Translations under genes and position numbers: made by a program | Notes under the pieces: model-generated | The model's database searches: none | Told to the model about the DNA's origin: nothing | The model's input: the letters and a program-made list of their open reading frames with translations, nothing else | Shown here: positions 4,195 through 41,078 of the stretch, piece after piece | How positions within the stretch are numbered: position 1 is the stretch's first letter | Layout of the letters: the number at the start of each line of letters is the position of its first letter | Origin: Paramecium tetraurelia | Taxonomy: Eukaryota; Ciliophora; Oligohymenophorea; Peniculida; Parameciidae | Reading direction: 5' to 3' | NCBI RefSeq assembly: GCF_000165425.1 | Contig: NW_001798973.1 | Location: 126,555 to 190,554, forward strand | Length of the DNA: 64,000 nucleotides

Positions 4195-5127
4195 ATGAAA
4201 TCGAAAAAGAGAGAAAAATCATTAGTTAAGGAGCTTGATGCTATTAGATCATTAAAAAATGAGAGCATTGATTTGAGAGAGTTGGAAGATAAAATGGTTA
4301 AGTTAATCGAAAAAGCAGCTCAATTTTATCAGGATTAATTGGATAATAATATGGCCTAATTTTATTTTGAATATGGGAGCATTTTAGTTTAAATATTGGA
4401 GTAATCCCAAGATTCCGTTGAAAATTCATTGAATTGTGTGGAGATATCAAGAAATGACAGGGAATTGAAAAATACATAATTGGCTTTTGAGAATCTGGAA
4501 GCAGCAAAAACAATCATACGAAACAGGTTGGATAAGCAAAATATAGAGATGTATAAATTATAAGACTAATTGCAATGTAATAGTATTTAGATATTAATAG
4601 AGATTAGATCGAAGATCAATGAAACAGAATTGGAAATGAGTTTGATTTTGATTAGAATAGGAGACCTCTAGACTTGGAGAGAAGATTATAAGGATGGATT
4701 ATTAAATTTTAATGCGGCATTAGACATATTGAAAAACTCATATAATTACAAAGAACTTAGTGCAGTACATTTTAAAATAGGAAATGCTATACTTTTATAA
4801 AATGAAAATGGGTGTGAAAAATTGAGTTTGAATCATTTGGAACAGTCCTTTCGTTATTGTTATTAGTAAATCTACAATAGAGAATGCGATCTGGATTTGA
4901 AGGAAAAGAATTTATCAAAGGTTGTTCTTGATAATGATTTATTGAAAATGCTACTGGAGAAAATGGAGGACACCTATATTTAGTTAAATGAAGTGAATGC
5001 TTGTTAGAAGGAGATAGAGAAATGGAAGAGTTCAGAACCAATTTTATAACAGGAGATATAATACTTAGGAAAAATTAGTAGATAATCAAACGCAATAAAT
5101 GGTATTCAAATAAAAAGAAAAATTTGA
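4195..5127 (+). CDS. NASP/Sim3/Hif1-type histone chaperone (SHNi-TPR)
   Basis: A single-exon frame of 310 residues. The central part shows the interrupted TPR of the NASP family: an FYFEYGSILVQILE helix pair near residues 55-70, a LAFENLEAAKTI repeat near 100, then LILIRIGDLQTWREDYKDG and FNAALDILKNS near 155-185, followed by AVHFKIGNAILL. The acidic insertion that interrupts TPR2 in animal NASP is replaced here by a Glu/Gln-rich segment. Members of this family bind histone H3 (or H1) and hand it to assembly factors in the nucleus. The C-terminus is basic and lysine-rich, like NASP nuclear-localisation tails. The assignment rests on repeat pattern and spacing. Confidence 0.75.
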
Positions 5128-5176
5128 ACTTTATTAATTATTATTTTCTGCTTTTCATTATTAATTATTAAATCTA

Positions 5177-6212
5177 ATGAATATAAATGGGCTTGAAAAA
5201 ATTTGTAATTAAGCTACAAATTTTTGGAAATAATAATTCATTTCATCATCTAAATAAGATTAAGACGTTTCAACCAATGTTGGGTCGAATATCTTAGAAG
5301 AATAATCTATTTTTGAGATATCTGCTAAAAAAACTGAATAATATCTCTTCCCTGATATAGAAAGATATCACTTAAATATCGAAAAATGTGAGCCACAATT
5401 TCCTTAAAGTGTGATCTAACAGCCTCAATAATTAGAATTGGAAGACAATTATGAAGCCAGTTGTTCGCAATGCTCTGATTGTTAGAGCAAACGAAGAGAT
5501 AAAAAAAAATCAAAATCAAGATCTTGCAAATCAAGTATTCATCTTAAATATATTTTTAAGCAAAATAGAGGTTTACCATATCCCAAGAAGCATTCATTAT
5601 GGAATAAACAAGAAAGGGAACTAGCTTCACAGATATTGCTTAATAAATTCCAGGTTCAACTGTGAATTAAGTCAAACATCATCTCCTGAAAAAACTTAAA
5701 ATTTGTAATAAAAATACTGATCTTCAAGGAGACAATATTACTGAAATTATCTTAAAAATTTAATAATTATAACAGTAATCAATTTTAATATTTTAGAAAT
5801 GAGAATATAGATAATGCTGTTAAAATTAAAGAACTTAAAGAACATATATCTTTAGTAGAAAATCATTTGCATCAAACTAAGCAAATCATTCTTTAAAAAT
5901 ATATGGTATTATTTCAATAATAATGACAATGAGTAGATATCTTTTATATTTAATTGTTTAAATAGAATCACACGATTATTTATAATATTCTAATATTTCT
6001 TAATTTTCAATTTCTAAGAATGGAAGTTATTTGATCCTTACAAAAAAGAAAATTAAATGGAAAATGGAATCTCCTTATACAAAAAAAGATTACAAAAAAA
6101 ACAGGGGTTTGATAATTATCTTTATGATGCTATTTATTTATAAATAGTGAAATAAAATTCAGAAGAATTCTAAATAAACTCTTTTGGTGAAATCATTAGT
6201 TCTAAGTTTTGA
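5177..6212 (+). CDS. uncharacterised protein, exon structure unresolved
   Basis: ATG 5177 opens a frame of about 160 codons to TGA 5663-5665. It includes a Cys cluster (CSQCSDCQSKRRDKK near residues 97-110) and a Lys/Ser-rich stretch. Clearly coding sequence continues in another frame, with a coiled-coil block near 5790-5915 (RNENIDNAVKIKELKEHISL). A further open block with EWKLFDPYKKENQ near 6030 reaches TGA 6210-6212. Introns must join these, but the junctions near 5665-5790 and 5910-5950 are ambiguous. If the last block is real, the gene overlaps the 3' end of the convergent VWA gene by 54 bases. The family is not recognised. Confidence 0.45.
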
Positions 6213-39699: not shown

Positions 39700-41078
39700 A
39701 TATTTTATAACTTTATCATTTTTTGCAAATTATTGTTTCAGGCAGCATTAATAATTATAACTATAGTAACTAAACAGTTACTCCTAATTTAAACTGTATA
39801 TTTAATAGCTTCATAATATAAAGGTGTTATGATGAAAGTTTTCAAACTATTATATTATCATATTCTCTCTAGTATTTATAACTACAGATTTTTTATTTAA
39901 TAATAATTATTTCTCATACTTCTATGTTCCTTTATTTAACTCTTTTTATAATCAATTATAATATGTAATCATAATTACCATTTTATGATATCAATCTCTT
40001 AAACATTCTATTATTCAAATTTGTGAATTAAGAATTTATATTTCAAAAAACATACAAATTCTTGAATCAATTAAAATTTATTCTTAATTGTAAAACAAAC
40101 ACTATTAATCATATTAGATTACTAAGAATTTATTATAAGCAATGATATTCAGTTTTACATTATTTTATTTTCAAGTAAATGCAAGAATTCATTGAATTAT
40201 TTATTTTTAATGAACCATTGAATCGTAGATTAGGTGAATCAATGCTTATATACATGAAAGTTTAAATTTAAATAATATAAACAAAAAATCACTTTCTAGT
40301 TTCAATAAGTTATCCCATAATATTAATTAATTTTAATTAAAGCTTATTAGTATTTAAGAATTATGTTATAATTATATGAGGATAAACTCGGTCTCGTTCG
40401 TCTGAGATTGATGAATCAAACGTCGCTATTCTGATCAAATTATTAATTTTTACTATTTATCAATTCTATCTCTGATAAATTATTTTAAGTAAACAAAGAA
40501 TAAATAATTATATTTATATAATTTCAGGGTTCCCTCTTTCTATATTCAAATATTATCCATAAACATTAGAATTCGAATTATCTATAAGCATACCAAAAAT
40601 CCATTCAATATATTAAATTAAGTAAATTACCTATACATTATGAGTAATCATTTACTACTACTAGCATATTGCATATTAATTTACTTCACAGAAACCTCAC
40701 TATTTCATATATCTTTGGAACTACTTTTTTGTGCAAATAGAAAAAAAACAATCTTCTATATCTCGGATATATATAGAATTATCATAATCTTTCAATAAAC
40801 TCAAAACATCTTAAATTTACTTTAATCAAAATTTCTCTAATCAATCAATCTAATTACTTTTCCAATAAAAATATAAAACCCATAAAAGTATAATAATTTT
40901 TGATATAGTGTTAGAATTTATTATAAAAAATGAAATAACTTTCGAAAATATCACAAAATTACAAACTTATTCAAACTTTACCACCATTAGATTAACATTC
41001 TATAAAATGGTTGAACTCTCGAATTTACTTAAGTAAAATAATAGGTAAATACAAATAATAATAATATTTGTTATATTG
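39700..41078. other. long gene-free region containing a snoRNA
   Basis: About 1.4 kb without a protein gene. It is very AT-rich except for 40370-40440, which is a box C/D snoRNA listed separately. The remaining parts show no supported feature. Confidence 0.6.
40367..40442 (+). ncRNA. box C/D snoRNA, 18S rRNA methylation guide
   Basis: Box C ATGAGGA (40376-40382), box D' CTGA (40402-40405), box C' TTGATGA (40408-40414) and box D CTGA (40431-40434) occur in the right order and spacing, closed by a short AT terminal stem (ATAATT with AATTAT). The antisense element directly before D' contains GGTCTCGTTCGT, complementary over 12 nt to ACGAACGAGACC, an almost universally conserved stretch of 18S rRNA. 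By the D'+5 rule it would direct 2'-O-methylation of the second A of ACGAA, the region targeted by human U30. It is the only G/C-rich island in a 1.4-kb gene-free stretch, so it is probably an independent transcript. The target of the D guide is not identified. Confidence 0.8.

Follow-up and report, generated by a model that had tools for sequence, protein, structure and literature searches.

A 64-kb window of Paramecium tetraurelia DNA (64,000 nucleotides, C20:126555-190554 in the labels of the assembly) contains what is in all likelihood a box C/D snoRNA gene with transcription of its own, which is present in two copies by genome duplication and combines a D' guide to SSU rRNA with a D guide to LSU rRNA. 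From its boxes, its second copy, its upstream element and its complementarity to the rRNAs of other eukaryotes, we infer the transcript, the methylations that it would guide and the polymerase that would make it. The window is AT-rich and has one ORF of at least 150 aa when read from a start codon with table 11 versus 39 frames of at least 250 aa with table 6, two counts that follow different rules (start-codon ORFs and stop-to-stop frames, respectively). Long frames are thus mostly found with the ciliate code, which, taken with the duplicated block described below, suits a member of the Paramecium aurelia group.

The predicted snoRNA occupies positions 40374-40436 of the forward strand, where its 5' end is placed by the distance from the upstream element and by the start of identity with the second copy on contig C18, while its 3' end is approximate. 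Along this strand, the element consists of box C (ATGAGGA, 40376-40382), the D' guide GGTCTCGTTCGT (40390-40401), box D' (CTGA, 40402-40405), box C' (TTGATGA, 40408-40414), the D guide AACGTCGCTAT (40419-40429) and box D (CTGA, 40431-40434). Boxes D' and D are thus CTGA, box C' is close to RTGATGA, and the order and spacing of the boxes (19 nt from C to D', 2 nt from D' to C' and 16 nt from C' to D) are those usual for box C/D snoRNAs. Box C differs from the consensus RTGATGA by a single change, G for T at position 5, which is found in both copies; the four boxes are therefore ordered and normally spaced, as described in the earlier note, but box C is not perfect. Positions 40374-40436 are the sole match in the window to both the strict and the loose four-box pattern. 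The strict pattern was matched 0 times in 200 dinucleotide shuffles of the window, and the loose pattern gave a mean of 0.02 matches per shuffle, with at least one match in 2% of the shuffles. Together with a duplicate in which the RNA is conserved and 16 candidate genes of the same layout in eight pairs (see below), the box order relative to the shuffles substantiates the previous identification of a box C/D snoRNA at this site. The extent then given to it, 40367-40442, includes the RNA, but identity with C18 resumes only at 40374 and positions 40367-40373 are probably promoter spacer rather than RNA. Folding of the window copy yields an outer stem of 40368-40373 with 40437-40442 or so, which the C18 copy does not form when folded, and the stability of both folds is ordinary (z of -1.0 for the window copy and -0.5 for the C18 copy). 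The 3' flank AAATTATTAATTTTTA at 40437-40452, which is identical in the C18 copy, may act as a signal for 3'-end formation or termination.

When the genome (69 Mb in 231 contigs) was searched at the DNA level, only the snoRNA site and one other place, C18:124943-125069, were returned. The neighbourhood of the latter is colinear with the window, with a kinesin gene on one side and further blocks of similarity on the other; within the colinear block, identity is 82-86% for the three longest matches and 65-76% for the others. Genome duplication is the best explanation for the two gene copies, and it offers a ready test of which parts of a snoRNA gene are under selection. From 40374 to 40452, 2 of 79 positions differ between the copies, one located 2 nt 5' of the 12-nt D' guide and one after box D, and all 16 nt of the interval between C' and D are identical. 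Directly upstream of the RNA, just 11 of the 24 positions from 40350 to 40373 are identical, followed further upstream by a block (40310-40349) in which 2 of 40 positions differ. The sequence beyond this upstream block and beyond the 3' flank hardly aligns with C18.

Between about 39.6 and 41.05 kb, the window has no conserved coding block. The nearest aligned gene blocks end approximately 0.8 kb upstream (kinesin, on the opposite strand) and start approximately 0.6 kb downstream, distances that refer to the aligned blocks and not to mapped gene ends. The 1.4-kb stretch had been described as gene-free, which agrees with the lack of a conserved coding block but passes over a relic at 40521-40683. 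These 163 nt match at 72% a C18 stretch inside a reading frame that has a match to Pfam Peptidase_C2 (L004, about 4945-5730), and they are apparently what is left of a calpain-type protease gene lost on C20 after the duplication. With this apparent relic, a gene was lost at the locus while the snoRNA stayed. Positions 40521-40683 were also considered as a second RNA gene, which was rejected because the C18 counterpart sits in the calpain-matching frame, 4.5 kb from the snoRNA.

The upstream block common to both copies contains CCCATAA at 40314-40320 on the forward strand, a putative promoter element of the snRNA/snoRNA type that stands at -60 relative to the predicted start: 60 nt on from it is 40374, the same base at which identity with C18 resumes. 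CCCATAA is also found at -60 in 4/4 U2 genes and at -65, -61 and -61 in 3/3 U6 genes found in the genome, with the beginning of the Rfam match as the reference point, and the distance in the snoRNA gene corresponds to that in the genome's own snRNA genes. Because the shared CCCATAA block stands at the snRNA distance, the gene is very probably transcribed on its own, from an snRNA-type promoter, and the presence of this element in both the window and the C18 copies backs the independent transcription that had been proposed from the window. The accompanying statement that introns are too short to host snoRNAs is valid for the approximately 98% of P. tetraurelia introns that are 20-30 nt long, but not for a handful of introns of approximately 80 nt that contain snoRNAs (PMC5485702). 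TTTATAA is present at -34 to -31 in 3/3 U6 genes and in none of the 4 U2 genes, and no TTTATAA box was found at about -30 in the window snoRNA gene. The missing box leans to RNA polymerase II, though only tentatively, since 9 of 16 paired sibling genes have TATAA in the stretch of the U6 box. The four U2 genes (L037-L040), which are located on two contigs, have closely similar upstream regions and a common 3' flank, ACTTTTTAATTTAAACAAACG.

Genome-wide, the pattern CCCATAA-TGATGA-CTGA gave 27 matches versus five for the backwards pattern, and 16 of the 27 form eight duplicate pairs. In all 16 paired genes the TGA of box C follows the start of CCCATAA by 61-64 nt, within the 47-75 nt that the pattern allowed; the corresponding distance in the window/C18 pair is 63 nt. 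The 11 unpaired matches (L006, L007, L008, L014, L018, L019, L024, L025, L027, L029 and L032), with box C offsets ranging from 48 to 75, were left out of the snoRNA count; by eye some of them look like coding sequence, and others may be real. Of the eight pairs other than window/C18, four have a guide of at least 10 nt to conserved segments of the stand-in rRNAs. None of that length to the stand-in rRNAs, which are without the middle of the LSU, was found in L009/L031, L010/L030, L012/L020 and L016/L028, and L028 forms 19 pairs, with three G-U, with a stand-in rRNA. These results indicate that, in this ciliate, some or all of the snoRNA genes have their own snRNA-type promoters at a near-fixed distance from box C, and this distance provides a simple genome-wide snoRNA gene finder for such genomes.

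We propose that transcription of the window gene would start approximately 60 nt downstream of CCCATAA, at about 40374 and 2 nt before box C, and that the RNA would join the usual C/D proteins and fibrillarin, an assembly established for the box C/D family. The D' guide would pair with SSU ACGAACGAGACC and direct 2'-O-methylation to the A at D'+5, which probably corresponds to human 18S Am1383, while the D guide would pair over 11 nt with LSU ATAGCGACGTT for methylation of the G at D+5. In the window, ACGAACGAGACC is found once without mismatch, as its antisense at 40390-40401 directly before D', and at two further places with 2 mismatches. In three printed algal 18S sequences, which contain ACGAACGAGACC (PMC8125830), 12-13 nt can pair with the D' guide; the fungal 18S primer FF390 contains ACGAACGAGACC as well (PMC5291099). 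The stand-in protist SSU (L036, classed as eukaryotic SSU by its score of 1670 bits) has ACGAACGAGATC instead, and with this change the match falls to 10 nt, or 12 with one G-U. The 18S guide reported previously is borne out on the rRNAs of other eukaryotes, in which 10-13 nt of the SSU and 11 nt of the LSU are complementary to the sequence before the boxes. Genome-wide, the D' guide with an adjacent CTGA was found at two places, both of them the snoRNA copies; the backwards control gave four. A search of the assembly found no 5.8S and no match to the stand-in SSU (the latter search had no known positive), and viral contigs gave no match to two rDNA patterns; with the organism's rRNA not found in the assembly, the targets rest on the rRNA of other eukaryotes. 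The P. tetraurelia rDNA cluster is said to be outside the genome annotation (PMC6735861).

D'+5 is the fifth base of the SSU segment, the A in ACGA[A], and the predicted methylated A pairs with position 40397. When the 12-nt segment is aligned by hand with the human 18S sequence, no other A in it agrees with both Am1383 and Cm1391; the guide of Am1383 is SNORD30/U30. The equivalence with the U30 target drawn in the earlier note is compatible with this manual alignment, and the methylation itself is predicted: most probably, the gene directs ribose methylation to a single conserved position in 18S. Both modified sites of human 18S are given in Taoka 2018 (PMC6182160). Literature searches that paired Am1383 with SNORD30 or looked for the LSU segment returned no paper.

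The D guide is antisense, with 11 Watson-Crick pairs and 1 unpaired nt before box D, to ATAGCGACGTT in the stand-in LSU of L035 and L036, a segment that we take to be helix 89, and its D+5 points to the G in LSU AUA[G]CGACG. The same LSU guide is found directly before box D (12 nt) in the snoRNA pair L013/L021 (each at 1501-1631), which at D' also matches the SSU 5' end over 10 nt and whose D+5 falls on the C next to the G to which the window snoRNA points. Genome-wide, CGTCGCTAT followed after 0-2 nt by CTGA occurs at four places, all of them these snoRNA genes, versus 0 in the control. The C to which L013/L021 points precedes the U of GATTGTTC by 72 nt in 3/3 stand-in LSUs, and this U is presumably the A-loop U, human Um4468 of the Um4468-Gm4469 pair. 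Counted 72 nt back from this Um4468 anchor, the matching human numbers would be 4395 for the G and 4396 for the C. With the numbering anchored in this way, 4395 and 4396 are absent from the main text of Taoka 2018 (PMC6182160). Perhaps the window snoRNA guides methylation at a 28S site too. A further reading, that one RNA joins the U30 SSU site with LSU ATAGCGACGTT and, with L013/L021, marks a neighbouring LSU G and C that are absent from the human list, is put forward only tentatively and strikes us as rather doubtful.

Matches of at least 10 nt to the stand-in rRNAs were found next to 8 of 369 other CTGA sites in the window (10 of all 371 sites, two being the snoRNA's own), with none of 10 or more in a subset of 150 of the 371, and next to 12 of 522 CTGA sites in the flanks of the fetched loci. 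Given the 8/369 and 12/522 of these controls, one 10-nt guide match is not rare and is weak alone, and what gives the evidence its force is that a single four-box element has a match at each of its two expected positions.

Against this background, three other explanations were weighed. The snoRNA could arise by processing of an intron or of a longer host transcript and lack its own promoter, for which the snoRNA-containing introns of approximately 80 nt provide a precedent in P. tetraurelia (PMC5485702), but no conserved coding block spans the snoRNA site and the sequence shared upstream is a CCCATAA block at the snRNA distance; such an origin is very unlikely. Even less credible is a dead or chance look-alike of a snoRNA: both duplicates retain the upstream block, the RNA and the 3' flank despite a diverged neighbourhood and the loss of a gene, and the strict four-box pattern appears in 0/200 shuffles, which outweigh the imperfect box C and the lack of an Rfam match above the cut-off.

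A much more serious contender, to which we would give somewhat less than an even chance, is that only the D' (18S) guide works and that the LSU match of the D guide is inherited or accidental, so that it guides nothing or acts as a chaperone. An unpaired nucleotide adjoins box D, the G to which the D guide points is one base from the C to which L013/L021 points, and neither 4395 nor 4396, as numbered from the presumed A-loop U, is found in the main text of Taoka 2018, all of which would suit a D guide without a methylation target. The length of the LSU match (11 nt), the identity of 16/16 nt between C' and D in the C18 copy and the restriction of the LSU guide next to CTGA to four snoRNA genes of the genome (control 0) argue instead for the gene with both SSU and LSU guides, which we prefer.

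No Rfam family was matched at or above its gathering score anywhere in the window. At a permissive threshold, 40300-40520 gave three matches, 0 above the cut-off. The best weak match at the snoRNA was to SNORD59 (23.8 bits vs. a cut-off of 45), which, like a sub-cut-off match to SNORD69, was read as generic C/D likeness and not as family membership; a plant-virus pseudoknot model had a sub-cut-off match at 40454-40499. When the SNORD30 (RF00088) covariance model was run on the whole genome, the snoRNA site was not among the matches, the one sub-cut-off match being at C192 (26.2 bits, E 4.1). The same model gave matches in 8 of 14 control genomes, all below the cut-off. A search of the plasmid collection gave no match. 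Similar to SNORD30/U30, the window gene has boxes C, D', C' and D, a guide before D' that is antisense to ACGAACGAGA(CC) and, by the manual alignment, a D'+5 on an A that fits Am1383 (PMC6182160). It differs from SNORD30/U30 in that it lacks a match to the Rfam SNORD30 model, is very probably an independent gene and has a second guide, to LSU. The gene may work like U30, yet it is not classed as a SNORD30 homologue.

The window gene also resembles TtnuCD32 and TtnuCD33 of Tetrahymena, for which independent transcription and an snRNA/snoRNA-like upstream element are described, and the upstream-arm primer of TtnuCD32, reverse-complemented by eye, contains CCCATAA (PMC6315972). In the two Tetrahymena genes, 98 and 118 bp separate the upstream element from the mature RNA, whereas the distance is about 60 nt in the window gene, and TtnuCD32 is described as trimmed from a 144-nt precursor, whereas no long leader is predicted for the window gene (PMC6315972). 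The gene is a well-made example of a long-known kind and ordinary in itself; the earlier note is extended here by a promoter element upstream, a second copy on C18 and an additional (D) guide. The annotated P. tetraurelia snoRNAs reportedly derive from the list of Chen et al. 2009 (RNA 15:503). With 142 snoRNAs annotated in P. tetraurelia (PMC6735861), the window gene may be one of them or a counterpart.

The contigs L033, L035 and L036 are filed as bacterial bins and carry eukaryotic rDNA, which is probably due to bin contamination. A eukaryote-like LSU segment is also located near the start of the fetched stretch (L034, about 1-400) of a 790-kb contig filed under Planctomycetota.
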